NCBI GenBank assembly: GCA_026392115.1
Contig: JAPLCQ010000089.1
Coordinates: 66,509 to 106,914 of the forward strand
Source: Armatimonadota bacterium
GTDB taxonomy: Bacteria; Armatimonadota; Chthonomonadetes; Chthonomonadales; CAJBBX01
DNA: 40,406 bases
Reading direction: 5' to 3'
The notes under the pieces are model-generated. The model saw only the letters and a program-made list of their open reading frames with translations, was not told the DNA's origin and did not search any database. A program made the translations under genes and the position numbers. This document shows, piece by piece, positions 23,210-38,273 of the stretch (its first letter is position 1; each line of letters begins with the position of its first letter).

Positions 23210-25258
23210 ATGACCACCAGACCACCGACGCGGGAACCCGTGGGCCTTGTTCGGCTTGACCCCTGGCTGGAGCCCTATGAGCCGCAGCTCCGCGAGAGGC
23301 TGCGGCGCTTCCGGGACGCCCTGGCGCGGATGGAGGACGGCGGCGGGCTCCTCGGCTCCGTGAGCTTGGGCCACCGGTACCTGGGCCTGAACCGCGGCGA
23401 GCGCGACGGCGCGCCCGGCCTCTGGTACCGCGAGTGGGCGCCCGGCGCGACCTACCTGGCCCTCATCGGCGACTTCAACGGCTGGGACCGGGGCGCCCAT
23501 CCCATGGCCCGCGACGAGTGGGGCGTCTGGTCGATCTTCATGCCCGACGGCCCGCACGGTTGCGCCATCGCCCACGACGGCCGCCTGAAGGTCCACGTGG
23601 CGCACCGCGAGAGCGCCATGGACCGCCTGCCGGCCTACGCCACACGGGTGGTGCAGGAGCCGGACACGAGCTTCTGCGCCCGCTGGTGGAGCCCGGCTGA
23701 GCCCTACGCCTGGCGCGAAGAAGCCCCTGTCGCGCCGCCCGCCCTGCGCATCTACGAGGCGCACGTGGGCATGGCGCTGGAGGAGGGGCGCGTGGGCACC
23801 TTCGGCGAGTTCACCCGCGACGTCCTCCCGCGCATCGCCGGGCAGGGCTACAACGCGGTGCAGCTCATGGCCGTCATGGAGCACCCCTTCTACGCCTCGT
23901 TCGGCTACCACGTCTCCAGCTTCTTCGCCGTCTCGTCGCGCTTCGGCACGCCGGATGAGCTGAAGGCGCTGGTCGACGAGGCGCACCGGCTGGGCCTTAC
24001 GGTCATCATGGACCTGATCCACTCGCACAGCGTGAAAAACGCGGCGGAGGGGCTCAATCGGTTCGACGGCACGGACCACCAGTACTTCCACGCCCCGCCG
24101 CGCGGCGAGCACCCGGCGTGGGACTCGCTCTGCTTCGACTACGGCAAGGCCGAGCCGCTCCGGTTCCTCCTCTCCAACGTCCGCTTCTGGCTGGAGGAGT
24201 ACCGCTTCGACGGCTTCCGCTTCGACGGCGTCACCAGCATGCTCTACCTGGACCACGGCATCGGGCGCCCGTTCAACCGCTACGACGACTACTTTGGCGA
24301 CAACGTCGACGCCGACGCCGCGACCTACCTGATGCTGGCCAATGAGCTGGCCCATCGGGTGCGGCCCGGCGCGGTGACCGTGGCGGAGGACGTCTCGGGG
24401 ATGCCGGGCCTCGCCCGCCCCGTGGCCGAGGGGGGACTGGGCTTCGACTACCGCCTCGCCATGGGCGTGCCCGATATGTGGATCCGCCTGCTGAAGGAGC
24501 GCAAGGACGAGGAGTGGCGCCTGGGCGACATCGTCGGCACGCTCCTCAACCGCCGCCATACCGAGAAGCACGTGGGCTACGCCGAGTCGCACGACCAGGC
24601 CATGGTGGGCGACAAGACCCTCGCCTTCTGGCTCATGGACCAGCGGATGTACTGGAACATGGACCGCGCCGCCGCCGATCCCGTGGTGGAGCGGGGCATC
24701 GCGCTGCACAAGATGATCCGCCTCATCACCTTCGCGCTGGCCGGCGACGCCTACCTGAACTTCATGGGCAACGAGTTCGGCCACCCCGAGTGGATCGACT
24801 TCCCGCGCCAGGGCAACGGCTACTCGTACCACTACGCCCGCAGGCAGTGGTCGCTGGCCGACAACGGCTTCCTCCGCTACCAGGGACTGAACGAGTTCGA
24901 CCGGGCCATGATGGCGCTGGACGAGCGCAGGCGGCTGCTGGCCGACCCGTTCATCGAGCAGCTATCGGTGGACGAGGAGGCCCGCGTGCTGGTCGTGCGG
25001 CGCGGCGCGCTGGTCTTCGCGTTCAACTTCGACGCCGAGCGCTCCTACAGCGGCCTCCGCATCCCCGTGCCCGACGCGGCCGACTACGTGGTGGAGCTGG
25101 ACACGGATAGGGCCGAGTTCGGCGGGTTCGGGCGCACGGAGCCGGGCGCCACGTACCTGCTGCAGTCCGCGCCCGCGCAGGGGCGCGACCAGAGCGTGCA
25201 GGTCTACCTGCCCGCGCGGAGCGCTCAGGTCCTGGCGCCGGTTGCCGCCTTGAAGTAG
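23210..25258 (+). CDS. glgB: 1,4-alpha-glucan branching enzyme, GBE1-like (GH13)
   Basis: 682 residues. It cuts alpha-1,4 glucan and rejoins the piece as an alpha-1,6 branch in glycogen synthesis. A CBM48-type N-terminal domain (WYREWAPGATYLALIGDFNGWD) precedes the GH13 barrel. The nucleophile is Asp339 in YRFDGFRFDGVTSM, the acid/base Glu393 in VTVAEDVSGMP, and the transition-state Asp follows in YAESHDQAMVGDKT. The wording of these blocks (SMLYLDHGIG, GLGFDYRLAMGVPDMWI, NRRHTEKHVGYAESHDQ) matches the eukaryotic GBE1-type branch rather than the enterobacterial GlgB branch. GGGGAGGG precedes the ATG. No other glycogen gene is in the window. The last 34 bases overlap a convergent methyltransferase gene. 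Confidence 0.92.
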   Translation: MTTRPPTREPVGLVRLDPWLEPYEPQLRERLRRFRDALARMEDGGGLLGSVSLGHRYLGLNRGERDGAPGLWYREWAPGATYLALIGDFNGWDRGAHPMARDEWGVWSIFMPDGPHGCAIAHDGRLKVHVAHRESAMDRLPAYATRVVQEPDTSFCARWWSPAEPYAWREEAPVAPPALRIYEAHVGMALEEGRVGTFGEFTRDVLPRIAGQGYNAVQLMAVMEHPFYASFGYHVSSFFAVSSRFGTPDELKALVDEAHRLGLTVIMDLIHSHSVKNAAEGLNRFDGTDHQYFHAPPRGEHPAWDSLCFDYGKAEPLRFLLSNVRFWLEEYRFDGFRFDGVTSMLYLDHGIGRPFNRYDDYFGDNVDADAATYLMLANELAHRVRPGAVTVAEDVSGMPGLARPVAEGGLGFDYRLAMGVPDMWIRLLKERKDEEWRLGDIVGTLLNRRHTEKHVGYAESHDQAMVGDKTLAFWLMDQRMYWNMDRAAADPVVERGIALHKMIRLITFALAGDAYLNFMGNEFGHPEWIDFPRQGNGYSYHYARRQWSLADNGFLRYQGLNEFDRAMMALDERRRLLADPFIEQLSVDEEARVLVVRRGALVFAFNFDAERSYSGLRIPVPDAADYVVELDTDRAEFGGFGRTEPGATYLLQSAPAQGRDQSVQVYLPARSAQVLAPVAALK

Positions 25259-30419: not shown

Positions 30420-30833
30420 TTACCAGCCGCCCGCCTCGACCGCGCGCGCCATCTCCTCGGCAAACGCCGTCGGGAGCCAATCCACCTTGTGAAAGACCCT
30501 CAGGCGCTCCCCTTGCGTGAAGCGCGCCAGCGTCTGCGGGTTCTGCACGTTGGTCAGAACCGCCACCGGCGTCTCCGGGCAGTGGGCGCGGAGGACCGAG
30601 TAGAGGAGCACGCCCGTGATCAGCCCGTTGTCGCTGGCCTTGGCCGTGAAGAGCTTGCCCGGCGGCATCATGATGTCCAGCACGATGAGGTCCGGGCAGC
30701 CGGAGCCGGCCTCCTCCACCGCCCTGTCCGGGATGACGCACTGGAGGACCTCGAAGCCCTTCTGCTCCAGCGCCGACACGTGGTACCAGTTCGGCGTAAC
30801 GTCGTCATCCACAAACAGAAGCCTCTTTGCCAC
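30420..30833 (-). CDS. Stand-alone response regulator receiver domain
   Basis: 137 residues, only a CheY-like receiver. The acidic triad is in LLFVDDDVTPN, the phospho-acceptor Asp53 in LIVLDIMMPPG, the conserved Thr in AVLTN, and Lys in VFHKVDWLP. The insertion KLFTAKASDNGLITGVLLYS after the phosphorylation site is longer than in CheY. There is no DNA-binding or enzymatic output. It starts with GTG 8 bases after the stop of the TIM-barrel kinase gene, so it is very likely the kinase's partner, acting as a phosphate shuttle or sink, or through protein contact. Confidence 0.9.
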   Translation of the reverse strand: MAKRLLFVDDDVTPNWYHVSALEQKGFEVLQCVIPDRAVEEAGSGCPDLIVLDIMMPPGKLFTAKASDNGLITGVLLYSVLRAHCPETPVAVLTNVQNPQTLARFTQGERLRVFHKVDWLPTAFAEEMARAVEAGGW

Positions 30834-30841
30834 GATCCTGC

Positions 30842-33358
30842 CTATCCCTTCTGCCTGGGCGACCGGTGCGCCAGCTCGCCCGGCAGCGTGATGGTGATCT
30901 CGGTGGGCTGGGCCGTGTGGGTCACGCGGACCGAGCCGCCGTGTGCCTCCACGATCTGCCGCACCACGAAGAGCCCCAGGCCCTGCCCGGCCACGTTGCG
31001 CTCCAGCGCGTTGCGGCCCCGGGCGCCCTCCTGGAAGAGGCGCTCGTCGGCGCCGGATGGAATGCCCGTGCCCCGGTCGCGGAAGGTTATCACATAATCG
31101 CCCCCGCGCCGATCGCCGGCGATCTCGACGTAGAACGCATCGGGATCGCTGAACGCGTACTTGATGGAGTTCGACAGCAGGTTGAACATCACCTGCTGGA
31201 ACTGGCTCCGGTCGATCCAGAGGCGGGGCACGGTCTCAAAATCGTCGTACTGGATCCGGTTCTCGCTGAAGCGTTTGCCCCGCAGCAGCAGGCCCGCCTG
31301 CCGCACGGCCGCGGCGATCACCTCCGACTTCAGGAAGGTGGGCCGGCAATCCAGCGGCAACGAGGCCCGCGCCGACCGCAGCACGTCGGCGTTGCCCACC
31401 AGCCGCCGCATGATGTCGCACCACGAGAGGATATCACCAAGGTAGTCGTAGGGGAGCATCTCCCGGACGCCCTTGGTGTGCTGGATCAGGTCCACGGCGC
31501 CCCGGATCGAGCCCAGCGGCACCTTCAGCTCGTGGGTCAGGCGGCCCAGGGCCGCGATGCGCCGCTCGTCGGCCAGCCGCGTCACCAGATGCGGCACCAC
31601 GGCCTGCCCGATGGCGTCGAGGATGGCCAGGTCGTCGTCGGAGTACATGGCCCAACGGCCGTCGGCGGAGCGCTTGTTCTGGCACCGCACCACTCCCACG
31701 ACCTCGCCGCCGGAGTCGAGGAGCGGCGCCACCAGGAACGAGCCCAGCTGCCGTCCCACCGTCTCCACGCTCTTTGCCACGCGGCCCGGCGCCTCGTGGG
31801 CGTCGGCTCCCACCACGGGCTCCTCGTTGGCCCAGACGCCTCCGGTGATGCCTTCGCCCTTGGCGTAGTGCCGCTCGCCCTCGTCCACGCGCCACTGCAG
31901 ACCCGTGGTGCTGGCGGCCTCCAGCCGGTCGCCCACGGAATCGACCACGAAGATGGTGACGCCGTCGCATACCAGCAGCCGCGCCACGAGGTCGCGCACG
32001 CGGTCGAGGAACGGCCCGGCATCTTTGCTCCGGCCCGCGGCCACGTTCACGGCGGCGGCCGCGTAGGCGCAGACCTGGTCCATGGCGGCGTCGGCGGCGC
32101 GGCCCACGAGGCCCCCCAGCGCACCCAGGTCCAGCGCCGAGACGCCGGGGTCGGCGTGCCGGTAGAAGAGGTTGGCGATGAGCCGCACGTGGTCGGCGTT
32201 GCTCGGGTCCGCGATGGGAACGGAGATCAGCGAGCGCATCCCCAGCGCGTTCACCACCTCCGGCGCGCAGAGCAGGGCGTCGGGCCGGCCGTAGGGCAGG
32301 CCGGGCTGCGGGCCCGCCAGGTCGAAGAACGTGGCGGCCTGCCGCTCCACGGCGATGCCGCTCAGAGCAGGGCCGCAACGCAGCGTCCGGTGCTCCACCG
32401 CGCTGCAAGGGGGGCTCACCGCCACAAGGGTGCCGAGGTCGCGGCTGGGGCTGAAGGACCAGAGCGACGCCAGGTCGGCCCGCGACACCTCGCGCAGGGC
32501 CTCGGTGATGTTCGTGTACGACTGCTCCAGGTCCTCGGACGAGGCGACCGCCAGCGACCGGGCGAAGTGCGAGACCATCTCCGGCGGGCAAGCCTCGGGC
32601 GCCACCATGGCCGGGCGCACGCGGTACGCCGGGCCGCCCGGAGGCGCCGGCCTCGGGAGCAGCTTGCGGTCGGCCAGCCAGCAGGCGCTCCGGTAGGCGC
32701 TGGTCAGCGGGTCCGTGCGCGACCGGTCCTGCTCCACCACGCCCCAGACGCCGGGGGCGCTCTTGCGCCACTCGGCGATGAAGGCCTCCAGCGGAACAAC
32801 GCCCTCGCCCAGCTCGGTGAAGCCCCGCGAGTAGCGGTAGGCCGAGCGGCCGTACTCCGGCGTCCAGTCCTTCAGGTGTACCGACGCCAGCCTCCCGACG
32901 CACTGCCGCAAGGCCGGCGCCGGGTCGTCGCCCACGATGTGCAGGTGCGCGCAGTCCGGGATGATGAGCAGCTCGGGATGCTCCTCCAGCAGGGCCTGCG
33001 CGGCGGCCATGCGGTGGAGCGGCCGGAACGTGATGGGATGGAGCGCCAGGCGGTGGCCCGCCGCCAGGGCGTCCTCGGCGTGCGCCGCGTTCCAGGCCTC
33101 CACGTAGAGGTAGGGGAGACGCACGTCGCGGCAGTAGGCCGCCCGGTCGAAGATGCTGCCTCCCGCCAGGCCCAGCAGGTGCAATCCGCGCTCCTCCATC
33201 AGCTTCAGGAGGGCCTCGATGGGCGGCAGCGCCTGGGGCGCCTGCGCGAACTCGATGCCGCGGTACCCCAGCGCGGCCAGGGCGTCGAGCACGCCCGGCA
33301 GGTCGGACAGCGTGGGACCGAACGCGATGGTCTGGTAGCCGATCAGGGCGGCGTCCAA
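30842..33358 (-). CDS. Hybrid sensor kinase with sugar isomerase/epimerase TIM-barrel input domain (TIM-GAF-GAF-HisKA-HATPase)
   Basis: 838 residues, TTG start 5 bases after GGAGG; no signal peptide or membrane helix, so cytoplasmic. Residues ~1-225 are a complete AP-endonuclease-2/IolE-type sugar phosphate isomerase/epimerase barrel: IGYQTIAFGPTLSDL, GYRGIEFAQAPQ, and metal-ligand strands PYLYVEAWN (Glu), LIIPDCAHLHI (Asp, His), SVHLKDWTPEYGRS (His), and WGVVEQDRSRTDP (Glu), all retained. GAF1 is ~270-430 and GAF2 ~445-590. The HisKA phospho-acceptor is His609 in LGRLTHELKVPLGSIRG. The HATPase has the N box NLLSNSIKYAF, G1 DRGTGIP and G2 GQGLGLFVV. The simplest reading is a soluble kinase that senses a sugar or inositol derivative with an enzyme-derived domain. 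Catalytic activity of the barrel is possible and untested. Confidence 0.88.
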   Translation of the reverse strand: MDAALIGYQTIAFGPTLSDLPGVLDALAALGYRGIEFAQAPQALPPIEALLKLMEERGLHLLGLAGGSIFDRAAYCRDVRLPYLYVEAWNAAHAEDALAAGHRLALHPITFRPLHRMAAAQALLEEHPELLIIPDCAHLHIVGDDPAPALRQCVGRLASVHLKDWTPEYGRSAYRYSRGFTELGEGVVPLEAFIAEWRKSAPGVWGVVEQDRSRTDPLTSAYRSACWLADRKLLPRPAPPGGPAYRVRPAMVAPEACPPEMVSHFARSLAVASSEDLEQSYTNITEALREVSRADLASLWSFSPSRDLGTLVAVSPPCSAVEHRTLRCGPALSGIAVERQAATFFDLAGPQPGLPYGRPDALLCAPEVVNALGMRSLISVPIADPSNADHVRLIANLFYRHADPGVSALDLGALGGLVGRAADAAMDQVCAYAAAAVNVAAGRSKDAGPFLDRVRDLVARLLVCDGVTIFVVDSVGDRLEAASTTGLQWRVDEGERHYAKGEGITGGVWANEEPVVGADAHEAPGRVAKSVETVGRQLGSFLVAPLLDSGGEVVGVVRCQNKRSADGRWAMYSDDDLAILDAIGQAVVPHLVTRLADERRIAALGRLTHELKVPLGSIRGAVDLIQHTKGVREMLPYDYLGDILSWCDIMRRLVGNADVLRSARASLPLDCRPTFLKSEVIAAAVRQAGLLLRGKRFSENRIQYDDFETVPRLWIDRSQFQQVMFNLLSNSIKYAFSDPDAFYVEIAGDRRGGDYVITFRDRGTGIPSGADERLFQEGARGRNALERNVAGQGLGLFVVRQIVEAHGGSVRVTHTAQPTEITITLPGELAHRSPRQKG

Positions 33359-33401
33359 GCGAACCTCCGGGCCGGCCCGCGGCGGCGCGACCGGCTACCT
33401 A

Positions 33402-33447
33402 CATTCTATCCGAAGCGCGCCCCGCCGCCCGCCGGTGCAGTAGAATG
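33402..33447. promoter_or_regulatory. Divergent promoter pair with mirror-image TAGAAT -10 boxes
   Basis: CATTCTA (33402-33408) and TAGAATG (33441-33447) are exact inverted repeats. Each gives a TAGAAT -10 box (5 of 6 to consensus), on the minus strand for the kinase gene and on the plus strand for the REC-GAF-GAF gene. The predicted leaders are about 30-40 bases on both sides. No -35 boxes are recognisable in the GC-rich spacer, which suggests an activator or a degenerate -35. Confidence 0.5.
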
Positions 33448-33484
33448 GTCTTGCCGCTCATCCCCATCCCACCGAAAGGCCGAC

Positions 33485-35074
33485 ATGGCGAAGATACTCA
33501 TCGTTGACGACGAGACGGGCATCCGCAAGACGCTGGCGATCTTCGTCGCCGCCGACGGCCACGAGGTCCTGACCGCCGCCTCCGCGGCCGAGGCCCTCGA
33601 GTTCATGGAGGCGGAGGCGCCCGACATCGTCATCACAGACGTGATGATGCCCGGCGCCGGCGGCATCGACCTGCTCTACCGCGTGCGCGACCGTTGGCCC
33701 GACACCCAGGTCATCGTCATGACCGGCGCTCCGAGCCTCGAGACCGCCCGCGAAGCCATCCGGGCGGGCGCTTTCGACTATCTGGCCAAGCCCGTGGGCA
33801 AGGACACGGTCCGCCGGGTCGCCGCCGCCGCGACGGCCATGCGCGCCGCCATCCTGGACAAGCAGGCGCTGGAGGCCGAGAACGAGCGCTACGAGACCTA
33901 CCTCGAGGAGCTGATCGACGACCGGACCGAGCACCTGCGGCGCCGCGTGCGCCAGATGCGCGAGCTGATGCAGCTGACCGCGGCCGTGAACGCCGGCGCC
34001 GACGAGCAGTCCGTCCTTCGCCGCATCCGGCAGGCGCTGATCAGCGCCTATGGGTTCGATCGCGCCGGCGTCTGGCTCTACGATGACGAGAGCGGGATGA
34101 TACAGGGGACTTACGGCACCGACCGGAACGGCGTCCTGACCGACGAGAGCCACACCCGGCTCCATGTGGACGACCCGGGCGCGGGAGGCTTTGCGCCGGT
34201 GCTCAAGGGCGAGCGTCCGTACCTGTACACCGTCGACATGCAGTCCGAGCACCGCCACGCGGAAGGGCACCACATGCACGGCGTCCTCCACCACCTGGTG
34301 CTGCCCATGCGGGCCGGCGCCGACGCCATCGGCGCCATCGCCATCGACAACGCCCTCACCAACCGCCCCATCGCCGAAGAAGAGGTCGACGACCTCCTGC
34401 CGTTTGCCGCCGTGGCCGCCGTGGCCATCCGCAACAGCCGGCTCAAGGACGCCCTGCGGACGGAGATCGCCGACCGGCAGGAGGCCGTGGCGGCGCTGCA
34501 GTCGCGAACGGCCGAGATGGACTTCCTCTGCGGCGTGGCCAGCGGCATCGCCGGCGCACCGGACGAGGCGAGCCTCTACGCGGCCATCACGGACGCGCTC
34601 CGCCAGAGCGTGCCCTGCTTCAACTTCCTCCTCGCCGCATACAGCCCGGCCATGGGCATGATGCGCGTGGTCCATGCCTGGAGCGCCGCGACCGGCTCCG
34701 CGGATACCTCCGACTGGCCCGTGCTGCCCGTGGCTCCGGCCGGCGCCGGCGTGGCCAGCGCCGTGCTGCGCAGCGGCAAGTCCGCCCTCTTCCCGGACTA
34801 TTCGGCGGCCCGGGCAAGCAGCACGGCCACCTACTACGTCGACAAGGCGGGCGGCGTCCATGACGCCGTTCCGAGCGATGCCCCCGGCGTCCCCCGGTCG
34901 GCGGCCTTTGCGCCTCTTCGCGTCCGCGGCGCGGTCGTGGGCCTGCTGGAGGTCTTCTCCGACCGCCTGGACGCCTACACCCCCGACCACCAGCGCCTCC
35001 TGGAGGCGATCTCCGTCTACGTGGCCGCGGGCCTCCGCAGCCTGGGCATCCTGGAGCGCGTGAGCTACGAGTAG
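33485..35074 (+). CDS. REC-GAF-GAF regulator without output domain
   Basis: 529 residues. The receiver domain (1-120) has the acidic pair in ILIVDDETG, phospho-acceptor Asp52 in IVITDVMMPGAGG, Thr in VIVMTGAPS and Lys in FDYLAKPVGK. A coiled coil (~125-165, ALEAENERYETYLEELIDDR) leads to GAF1 (~170-325; SAYGFDRAGVWLYDDESGMI, AIAIDNALTNRPI). A linker helix (LKDALRTEIADRQEAVAALQ) precedes GAF2 (~350-520; FAPLRVRGAVVGLLEVFSDR). No kinase, cyclase, phosphodiesterase or DNA-binding domain follows, so output must be by protein interaction or by an unrecognised activity. AAAGG lies about 6 bases before the ATG. It is divergent from the TIM-barrel kinase gene and probably part of the same pathway. 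Confidence 0.85.
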   Translation: MAKILIVDDETGIRKTLAIFVAADGHEVLTAASAAEALEFMEAEAPDIVITDVMMPGAGGIDLLYRVRDRWPDTQVIVMTGAPSLETAREAIRAGAFDYLAKPVGKDTVRRVAAAATAMRAAILDKQALEAENERYETYLEELIDDRTEHLRRRVRQMRELMQLTAAVNAGADEQSVLRRIRQALISAYGFDRAGVWLYDDESGMIQGTYGTDRNGVLTDESHTRLHVDDPGAGGFAPVLKGERPYLYTVDMQSEHRHAEGHHMHGVLHHLVLPMRAGADAIGAIAIDNALTNRPIAEEEVDDLLPFAAVAAVAIRNSRLKDALRTEIADRQEAVAALQSRTAEMDFLCGVASGIAGAPDEASLYAAITDALRQSVPCFNFLLAAYSPAMGMMRVVHAWSAATGSADTSDWPVLPVAPAGAGVASAVLRSGKSALFPDYSAARASSTATYYVDKAGGVHDAVPSDAPGVPRSAAFAPLRVRGAVVGLLEVFSDRLDAYTPDHQRLLEAISVYVAAGLRSLGILERVSYE

Positions 35075-35117: not shown

Positions 35118-38100
35118 ATGTCGCTACGGCTAACGCTCACCACCCTCGCCCTCCTCCTCTCCGCCGTCCATGCGGGCGCCTTCCCGTCGGGGCGGCCCTC
35201 GCTCAACCTGGACGGCGTGTGGCGGTTCCGCCATGTGGCCGATGACGCGGGCGAGGCCGAGTGGCGCGGCGGCGCGGCGTTTGGGCGCACGATCCGCGTG
35301 CCGGGGTGCTGGGACGTGCAGGGCGTGGGGCAGCCGACCGAACGGATGCGGACCCACGGCCTGGGCGTGGGCTGGTATCGCCGGACGGTGAGCGTGCCGG
35401 CGGGCTTCGGCCGCGGGCGGGTCTGGCTCTGCGTCGGCGGCGTCCACCGGTCGGCGCGCTTCTGGGTGAACGGCCGGCCCGCGGGCGAGCACTGGGGCTA
35501 CCCCGTCGCCTTCCGAGCCGACGTGACCGACCTGCTGCGGCCCGGCGCCGAGCAGGAGGTCGTCATCGCCGTGGACAGCCGCCGCCACAAGGAGCGCGAC
35601 CCGCTGGCCGGCGCCTTCGACCTGATGGACTACATGGACGTGGACTGGGGCGGCATCTTCGGCCACGTCACGCTGGAGACCACCGGCGAGGCGCGCCTGG
35701 AGAGCGTCTTCGTGCGGCCCGATCCGGCCGGCCGGCGCGCGCGGGTCGACGTGGAGACCGCGGGCGCCGTGCCGCCGGACGCCGTGCTGGAGTGCGTGGT
35801 GCGCGGCTCCGGCGCGGCCGCCTGGCGCACCCGCGCCCCTGCCGGGACTCGGGCCACGCTGGACCTGCGGCTGCCCGGCGCGCCGCTCTGGACGACCTAC
35901 TCCCCGAAGCTCCTCACCGCCGAGGTGACGCTGACCTCCGGCGCGACGACGCTGGACAGGCGCACGATCCGTTTCGGCCTGCGGCGGCTGGAGGTGCGGG
36001 GCGGCGAGTTCCTGCTCAACGGCGACAAGCTCTTCCTGCACGGCTACGGCGACGACTGGACCTTCCCAACCACCGTTACGGGACCGACGACGCTGCCCGA
36101 GTGGCGGGCCTACCTGCGGACGCGCAAGGACTACGGCTTCAACGCCGTGCGCCACCACTCCACCATGCCGCCCGAGGAGTATCTGGACGCCGCCGACGAG
36201 GTGGGCATCCTCGTGCAGCCCGAACTGCCCGTGGTCTACGAGCCCTTCTTCGCCGCAGCCACGCCCGCAGGGCGCGACCTCTACCGCGCCGTCTGGTCGG
36301 GCTACATCCGGCAGATGCGCAACCACGCCTCGGTCCTCGCCTGGTGCATGGGCAACGAGCAGTACAACGGAACCGTGCTCTCGACCGAGCTTTACCGCAC
36401 GGCCAGGGGTCTCGACCCCACGCGGCCCGTGGTCGACACCGACGGCGTGCCGCCCGGCGCCCGGCGGCCCACGCTGGACTACCTGAGCACGCAGTTCGAG
36501 GAGTGGGCCATCCCCTGGGGATCCAAGATCGGCAAGTACCGCACGCCGTCGCCGCCGCCCGCGCCGCTGGTGGTCCACGAGATGTCCAACCTCTCCGTGC
36601 TGCCCAATCCGGCCGACGTCCCGCTCTATGCCGGCGGGGTGCGTCCCACCTGGCTCGAGGCGATGCGGGGCGCCGTGGACCGCCGCGGCCTGGCGGCCGA
36701 ACTCCCCGCCATGCGCCGCGCGTCGGCCCGGTTGCAGGCGTCGCAGTTGAAGCTGAACATCGAGGCCGCGCGCCTCAACCCGCGCATCAAGGGCCACCAC
36801 CAGTGGCTCTTCCGCGACTACTGGAGCCAGAGCACGGGCTTCGTCGACCAGTTCGACCGGCCACGGGCCATCACACCGGACGTTTCTCGCCGCTTCATCG
36901 GCCCGGCCGTGCTCCTCTGGGACCGGGACCGGGCCGCGTACCGGAGCGGCGAGGGCGTGCCGGTGCGGCTCTACCTGTCGGACTACAGGCACGCCTCCGC
37001 CGGCAAGCTGGGTGCGCTGACGGCCCGTCTGGGCGCGCAGGCGATCACGCTGAAGCCTCCGGCGCGCGTCGGCGGGCGGGGCGTCATCGGGCCGTGGACC
37101 GGGCTAGCGCGCGCGCCCAGGGCCTCGGTGCCGCTGAAGCTGACGCTGGCAGCACGCTGCGGCGCCCTGGTCAACGAGTGGCCGATCTGGGTCTACCCGG
37201 CCCCGGCGCCGGGCAAGGCATCCGATGTGCTGGTCGTCCGCAGCCTGACGCCGAACACGCTGGACGAGCTGGAGCGGGGCCGCTCCGTGCTGGTCACCGA
37301 CGACGGGGCCACCTTCCCCACGCTGCAGGCGCGGTTCAAGACGGCATGGTGGCACGGCGACGACGCAGCCGATCACACCTACGGCAACCAGGTGGCCGAC
37401 CACCCGGCCGTGCGCGGCTTCGCGCCGGAGGGCTATGGCGACCTGCAGGCCGCGAACATGATGGAAGACCGTCCGGTGGTGATGCTGGACGACGTGCCCG
37501 GCGGCATCCGGCCCATCATCGCCTGCCTGGACGTCCCCTGGCGCATGGCCCGCAAGGCCTACCTCTTCGAGGCGCGCGTGGGCCGCGGCAAGCTGCTCGT
37601 CAGCACGCTGAACCTGAGCCGGACCGCCCGAGCCGCCGACCCGGCCGCCGCCTGGCTCCGCGCCCGCCTGGAGGCCTACGCCGCGGGCGACGCCTTCCGC
37701 CCGGCGGCCGAGATCCCCGTCGAGTGGCTCCGCAAGCGCGTTACAGAGACCGGGCTGCCCGACCCGGCCGACTGGTCCGAGGGCTTCGGCGCCGTCGTCG
37801 CCTCCACGGCGAAGGCGGAGCCCTGGCACACGCATCGCGACGACATGGCGCCCACCTACCCCGTGCGGCAGAGCGACGGCGCCCAGAGTCTCCGGTGGCG
37901 AACCGCGCCGGTGCGCCCGAAGCCGGGCTCCGACACGGTGACGCTGGTCTGGGCCGGCGGCATCGGCTGGTCGACCGAGCCCGAGGCGGGAGGCTTCACG
38001 CTGACGGTGAACGGTCGGCACGCGGTGGAGTTCCCGTTCACGGTCACGGGCGGGCAGTGGTCGAGCGCCGACGGAACGGTGCGGCTGCGCTACACCGTTC

Positions 38101-38273
38101 GGCGCACCATCGCGCCGGATTCCTTCGGTCTCTTCTTCCTGACGGCCCCGGTCGGCCTCTTCGAGCCGGGCAGGCCCGCCGAGATCGAGGTGAGGGCCCC
38201 GGGCAACGGCTCCAAGCGCTGGTTCGCGCTGGCCCCCTACCGCGACGCCGCCTCCAGGGAGGCCGAGCCGTAG
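35118..38273 (+). CDS. Secreted glycoside hydrolase family 2 enzyme (beta-galactosidase/glucuronidase-like)
   Basis: 1,051 residues with a signal peptide (LTLTTLALLLSAVHAGAF). The GH2 sugar-binding jelly roll follows (LNLDGVWRF, IRVPGCWDVQG, VGWYRRTVSVP, FWVNGRPAGEHWGYPVAF), then an Ig-like domain. The TIM barrel has acid/base Glu414 in AWCMGNEQYNG and likely nucleophile Glu488 in VVHEMSNLS; FLLNGDKLFLHGYGDDW marks the barrel start. The last ~450 residues include segments I do not recognise. The substrate (galactoside, mannoside or glucuronide) is not resolved. GGAGG lies 7 bases before the ATG. It starts 43 bases after the REC-GAF-GAF gene in the same direction, so co-transcription is plausible and links sugar sensing to polysaccharide breakdown. 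Confidence 0.88.
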   Translation: MSLRLTLTTLALLLSAVHAGAFPSGRPSLNLDGVWRFRHVADDAGEAEWRGGAAFGRTIRVPGCWDVQGVGQPTERMRTHGLGVGWYRRTVSVPAGFGRGRVWLCVGGVHRSARFWVNGRPAGEHWGYPVAFRADVTDLLRPGAEQEVVIAVDSRRHKERDPLAGAFDLMDYMDVDWGGIFGHVTLETTGEARLESVFVRPDPAGRRARVDVETAGAVPPDAVLECVVRGSGAAAWRTRAPAGTRATLDLRLPGAPLWTTYSPKLLTAEVTLTSGATTLDRRTIRFGLRRLEVRGGEFLLNGDKLFLHGYGDDWTFPTTVTGPTTLPEWRAYLRTRKDYGFNAVRHHSTMPPEEYLDAADEVGILVQPELPVVYEPFFAAATPAGRDLYRAVWSGYIRQMRNHASVLAWCMGNEQYNGTVLSTELYRTARGLDPTRPVVDTDGVPPGARRPTLDYLSTQFEEWAIPWGSKIGKYRTPSPPPAPLVVHEMSNLSVLPNPADVPLYAGGVRPTWLEAMRGAVDRRGLAAELPAMRRASARLQASQLKLNIEAARLNPRIKGHHQWLFRDYWSQSTGFVDQFDRPRAITPDVSRRFIGPAVLLWDRDRAAYRSGEGVPVRLYLSDYRHASAGKLGALTARLGAQAITLKPPARVGGRGVIGPWTGLARAPRASVPLKLTLAARCGALVNEWPIWVYPAPAPGKASDVLVVRSLTPNTLDELERGRSVLVTDDGATFPTLQARFKTAWWHGDDAADHTYGNQVADHPAVRGFAPEGYGDLQAANMMEDRPVVMLDDVPGGIRPIIACLDVPWRMARKAYLFEARVGRGKLLVSTLNLSRTARAADPAAAWLRARLEAYAAGDAFRPAAEIPVEWLRKRVTETGLPDPADWSEGFGAVVASTAKAEPWHTHRDDMAPTYPVRQSDGAQSLRWRTAPVRPKPGSDTVTLVWAGGIGWSTEPEAGGFTLTVNGRHAVEFPFTVTGGQWSSADGTVRLRYTVRRTIAPDSFGLFFLTAPVGLFEPGRPAEIEVRAPGNGSKRWFALAPYRDAASREAEP

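Follow-up and report, generated by a model that had tools for sequence, protein, structure and literature searches.

A sugar isomerase-like TIM barrel as the probable metabolite-sensing input of a mobile cytosolic histidine kinase-receiver module

Reviews of the inputs of histidine kinases list PAS domains, GAF domains and minor domains (PMC8534201), and the terms 'TIM barrel' and 'isomerase' are both absent from the text of PMC8534201. Protein-activity-sensing kinases such as BceS, PhoR and DcuS read a separate transport protein (PMC6978683), and soluble GAF-containing histidine kinases combine GAF, HisKA and HATPase domains with a paired receiver. Here, we describe a kinase encoded in a window of 40,406 nucleotides (the whole stretch of DNA that was analysed) from contig JAPLCQ010000089.1 of an Armatimonadota bacterium. 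This kinase shares the GAF, HisKA and HATPase domains and the paired receiver with the soluble GAF-containing kinases and differs from them by an enzyme-type TIM barrel ahead of the GAF domains. As in BceS, PhoR and DcuS, a metabolic or transport protein would feed a histidine kinase; whereas these systems rely on a transport protein that is separate from the kinase, the enzyme-type barrel here is part of the same polypeptide. In total, the two-component core is ordinary and the input module appears to be undescribed so far: a preliminary description of this DNA knew of no kinase with such an input and, similarly, in the open-access part of the literature we came across no histidine kinase described as carrying a barrel of the isomerase type.

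Table 1. Coordinates of the kinase, its domains and the adjacent genes in the window
Feature	Position	Strand	Remarks
Sensor histidine kinase, 838 aa	30842..33358	-	Seven genomes, one copy cut by contig end
Xylose-isomerase-like (IolE/AL1-type) TIM barrel, residues 1-236	32651..33358	-	Pfam, model, alignment
Kinase GAF-like region, residues 263-440, linker before it	32039..32572	-	Weak by sequence
Kinase GAF domain, residues 441-590	31589..32038	-	Pfam
HisKA/DHp 591-700 (H-box His609) and HATPase_c 701-838	30845..31588	-	Pfam, invariant motifs
Stand-alone receiver-domain gene, 137 aa, GTG start	30420..30833	-	8 bases after kinase stop
Divergent REC-GAF-GAF protein	33485..35074	+	Beside kinase only within genus/sister species

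The kinase gene is a single uninterrupted frame (Table 1) with a TTG start codon at 33358, a Shine-Dalgarno-like GGAGG lies 5' of this codon, and the open frame reaches just 12 codons further upstream. That one frame joins barrel and kinase had been proposed for the window, and the joint is also open in two sister species, which carry the same 838-aa gene with a barrel identity of 90-92%, and in four divergent lineages. The recurrence of the joint in seven independent genomes rules out a fusion, frameshift or assembly artefact. In Pfam searches with the window kinase, AP_endonuc_2 (1e-13), GAF (9e-16, residues 450-586) and HATPase_c (2e-19) all exceed their cut-offs, and HisKA is found at 0.001, under its cut-off. 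The assignment of a HisKA-type kinase with His609 as H-box histidine nevertheless holds, because the H-box histidine, the N box and the G1 and G2 boxes of the HATPase domain are all present and because His609, Asn726/Asn730, Asp761-X-Gly-X-Gly and Gly793-X-Gly are invariant across the complete kinase members. Of the two GAF domains claimed in the preliminary description, the second is clear, whereas the first matches Pfam GAF at E 0.0013, which is under the cut-off, and is unrecognised in the relatives; hence, we refer to it as a GAF-like region. We found no clear transmembrane segment in the kinase (the top 19-residue hydropathy is 1.83 and is located in the GAF core), suggesting that its signal is cytosolic. 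The model of the full-length kinase is weak, with a mean pLDDT of 67, and for this reason the inter-domain mechanism is unreadable from it.

A 1415-aa antisense open frame (window 30827-35074, plus strand) spans the whole kinase gene in frame with the REC-GAF-GAF gene and is an effect of high GC. We rejected this frame as the true coding strand on two grounds: within the part checked, the family matches lie in its last part, i.e. in REC-GAF-GAF, and the substitutions between the sister species fit the minus-strand frame, as judged from a low dN/dS.

The barrel is modelled by AlphaFold2 at a pLDDT of 92.5 as a (beta/alpha)8 fold and, with 52 bits against a cut-off of 31.1 bits, belongs to PF01261, in line with the earlier assignment to the IolE/AP-endonuclease-2 type, the extent of which we now set at residues 1-236. 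Among solved structures it matches Art22, IolE, AsbF, UlaE and AL1 best (Z scores of 20-23 and up to 23.5), and sugar phosphate isomerases are also among its best solved relatives. Compared with the barrel profile, IolE matches at 1e-28 and, on the side of endonuclease IV, 5zhz gives a weak match over part of its length at 2e-7. With 23.3 bits, the barrel stays far under the 290-bit cut-off of the IolE model TIGR04379 (NCBIfam) and thus does not qualify as an IolE inosose dehydratase. With IolE (inosose dehydratase; PDB 3cny, 9zmu) and with AL1-type 3-keto-glucoside lyases (8tcd) it shares the fold, the His at strand 5, the Asp, His and Glu at strands 6, 7 and 8, and the HLKD motif. Both of these are free enzymes of 260-300 aa, whereas the kinase barrel has about 236 aa and, unlike them, has conserved pocket residues of its own. 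The genome of the window encodes about 30 further AP_endonuc_2 barrels. A different fusion, in which a related barrel is followed by about 380 residues, is encoded at L081:319-2385 (minus strand); by eye, the latter part resembles sugar-hydrolase domains of the 3-keto-disaccharide type.

To compare the residues of the barrels, the seven kinase barrels were aligned with 49 free relatives. Asp135, His161, Lys163, Gly186 and Glu209 are universal in the free relatives and are all present in the kinases, and His107 and Glu36, each found in 46 of the 49, are likewise kept. The remaining three free relatives have Glu at the position of His107, which argues that this is the canonical strand-5 place. 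The ends of strands 5, 6, 7 and 8, a putative metal site, thus retain His107, Asp135, His161 and Glu209. Four metal-ligand positions had been listed previously and are not supported as a set: the Glu of 'YVEAW' (Glu87) belongs to strand 4 and, although acidic (Glu or Asp) in 7/7 kinase barrels, is not the canonical strand-5 residue, which is His107. His138 is also among the conserved pocket residues of the kinase barrel. A second set of residues, i.e. Gln39, Tyr85, Tyr169, Gly170, Ser172, Tyr176 and Gly179, which includes a Tyr169-Gly-X-Ser motif, is specific to the kinases (each in 0 or 1 of the 49 free relatives), and on the basis of the alignment suggests that the kinases share one ligand. 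Among the kinases, 77 residues are invariant and the barrel holds 32 of them; with strands assigned from the model, 26 of these 32 are on the catalytic face, which comprises 114 of 236 positions (p = 5e-5). Conservation within the kinase is highest in the barrel and the HATPase and, among the domains, lowest in the GAF-like region, where 3 of 178 positions are invariant. The dN/dS of the barrel between the sister species is about 0.06-0.11, and the barrel pocket is under strong purifying selection.

The functional unit extends beyond the kinase gene to which the preliminary description was confined, and includes the stand-alone receiver gene. Wherever the kinase is complete, in six of six loci (the window, L017, L018, L045, L046 and L095), a receiver gene is directly downstream of the kinase gene, the phospho-acceptor Asp is conserved in the receivers of all six, and an adjacent receiver of this kind, conserved together with the kinase, is what characterises a cognate two-component pair. 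The receivers have 137 aa in the window and in the sister species, 175 aa in L045 and 140 aa in L095, and carry an insertion of 10-12 residues after the phospho-Asp loop (DIMMPPG...TG in the window; DxxMPPG in most) that the other receiver in the window does not have. The receiver at L046:12042-13040 (genome G097) has about 200 additional C-terminal residues with no Pfam match, possibly an output domain.

The barrel kinase occurs in 6 of 291 Armatimonadota genomes and in 1 of 85 genomes of a second phylum, and its fused architecture is conserved across species: in addition to the window and sister species, a scan of the phylum identified it in three other genera of Armatimonadota (genomes G043, G019 and G097), and G1007, the genome from the other phylum, represents the fourth divergent lineage. 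No barrel kinase was found in samples of three more phyla or in about 56 further phyla represented by one genome each, an empty answer that alone shows little. The G043 copy is cut by the end of its contig behind the GAF-like region, and the sequence does not cover what would be its kinase half. G1007 is a bin of 79% completeness and its kinase is on a contig of 7.6 kb, leaving the cross-phylum claim open to mis-binning. Identity between the barrels of the different kinase lineages is 29-43%; against their own profile the kinase barrels score E < 1e-60 and the best free barrels about 1e-22. In a tree of 56 barrels, the seven kinase barrels form one clade (support 100/99) that contains none of the 49 free relatives. 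Thus, neither homologues that are always separate proteins nor a hidden frameshift, the findings that would have spoken against the fusion, were encountered.

The kinases of the Chthonomonas-like genomes, those of the window and the two sister species, group with that of G1007 and not with that of G043 from the same order (94/80). In G019, kinase and receiver (L045:8050-11340) have a GC content of 33-35% and are located between ABC ATPase and permease genes of 65-69% GC; in the relatives G020, G026 and G029 (L090, L091 and L092), the ATPase and permease genes are adjacent and the site is empty. As the G019 contig is 1.7 Mb, this insert is not a binning error. Similarly, the G097 pair has 44-45% GC in surroundings of 54-56%. 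The tree and the composition of these loci indicate that the kinase barrels have one origin, followed by horizontal movement of the kinase-receiver module. Carriage by plasmids or phages was considered and rejected: barrel and receiver have no match in plasmids or viral contigs, and where the whole kinase finds matches in plasmids, it is the generic kinase domain that is matched.

Combining these data, we suggest that kinase and receiver probably constitute a horizontally moving cytosolic two-component module in which the repurposed pocket of a sugar-isomerase/lyase barrel senses a sugar-like metabolite. Because the barrel is intact and conserved across genera and its pocket is under purifying selection, sensing of a metabolite, as in the earlier suggestion that the barrel reports to a phosphorelay, would be the most economical reading; and because the retained pocket has a kinase-specific lining, it would bind one metabolite, for which the family of the barrel argues for a sugar- or polyol-like compound. 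In this model, for which we infer the class of the ligand, the metal, the direction of signalling, the phosphotransfer to the neighbour and the output, (i) a cytosolic polyol or keto-sugar-like metabolite would bind in the retained barrel pocket, probably on a divalent metal, (ii) binding would alter the helical path from the barrel through the GAF-like region and the GAF domain to the DHp domain and in that way set the autophosphorylation of His609, (iii) the phosphoryl group would be transferred to the receiver encoded just downstream, and (iv) this receiver, which in most members has no output domain, would act like CheY or DivK by means of protein contacts or a further relay.

Alternatively, the barrel could still be an active enzyme and the kinase could read turnover or substrate occupancy, i.e. 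the protein would be a fused trigger enzyme. The strong purifying selection on the barrel and the retention of all residues that are universal in the free relatives, including Asp135, His161, Lys163 and Glu209, as well as of His107, fit this possibility; we nevertheless consider it rather unlikely, given that the second His of strand 5 and the acidic residue following it, which are common in the free relatives, are gone from the window barrel (HPI) and that the seven kinase-only substitutions are conserved. The more far-reaching version, in which a working enzyme lets the kinase report the catalytic flux of one sugar-like metabolite to a phosphorelay and the protein is a mobile, single-polypeptide flux sensor across phyla, seems unlikely to us. 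It is also conceivable that sensing is done by the GAF domains and that the barrel is an accessory; GAF domains are established sensors (PMC8534201) and GAF2 is well conserved among the sister species. A barrel that is a structural or protein-docking module is, however, difficult to reconcile with conservation that is concentrated on its catalytic face and with a GAF-like region that is the least conserved domain, and we regard this model as improbable.

The alien GC content of the cassette, its patchy distribution and its insertion into an operon would also be compatible with a mobile anti-phage or conflict system in which the barrel is a nuclease related to endonuclease IV. In this direction, the receiver (30420-30833) matches, at 2e-7, the N-terminal receiver part of a Shedu SduA profile; a second match is that of the HATPase (kinase residues 697-817) to the PADLOC candidate PDC-M43B. 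The SduA match, however, is limited to profile positions 6-111, i.e. to the receiver part and not the nuclease domain, and is also made by an unrelated receiver in the window; moreover, the receiver is not a Shedu protein, as it has no DUF4263 nuclease domain and Pfam sees the receiver domain alone. Both matches probably reflect generic similarity of signalling domains. Given that sequence and structure matches of the barrel favour sugar isomerases and lyases and that none of the neighbours scanned is clearly defence-like, we consider a role in defence very improbable.

If the barrel is a metabolite sensor as we suggest, an enzyme-derived TIM barrel would join the known input modules of histidine kinases and the conserved kinase-only pocket should bind one definable metabolite. 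The system would provide a direct test case for whether an enzyme active site can become a switch for a kinase. Reconstitution should be simple, as the partner is small and consists of a receiver only.

In the window, the REC-GAF-GAF protein, in which Pfam recognises no DNA-binding output, is a possible second target of the kinase. Past the receiver gene, the neighbours differ in every lineage and therefore point to no single pathway. In the vicinity of the window kinase, a glycoside hydrolase family 2 protein is encoded at 35118-38273 and a CBM48/alpha-amylase family protein at 23210-25258, both on the plus strand.
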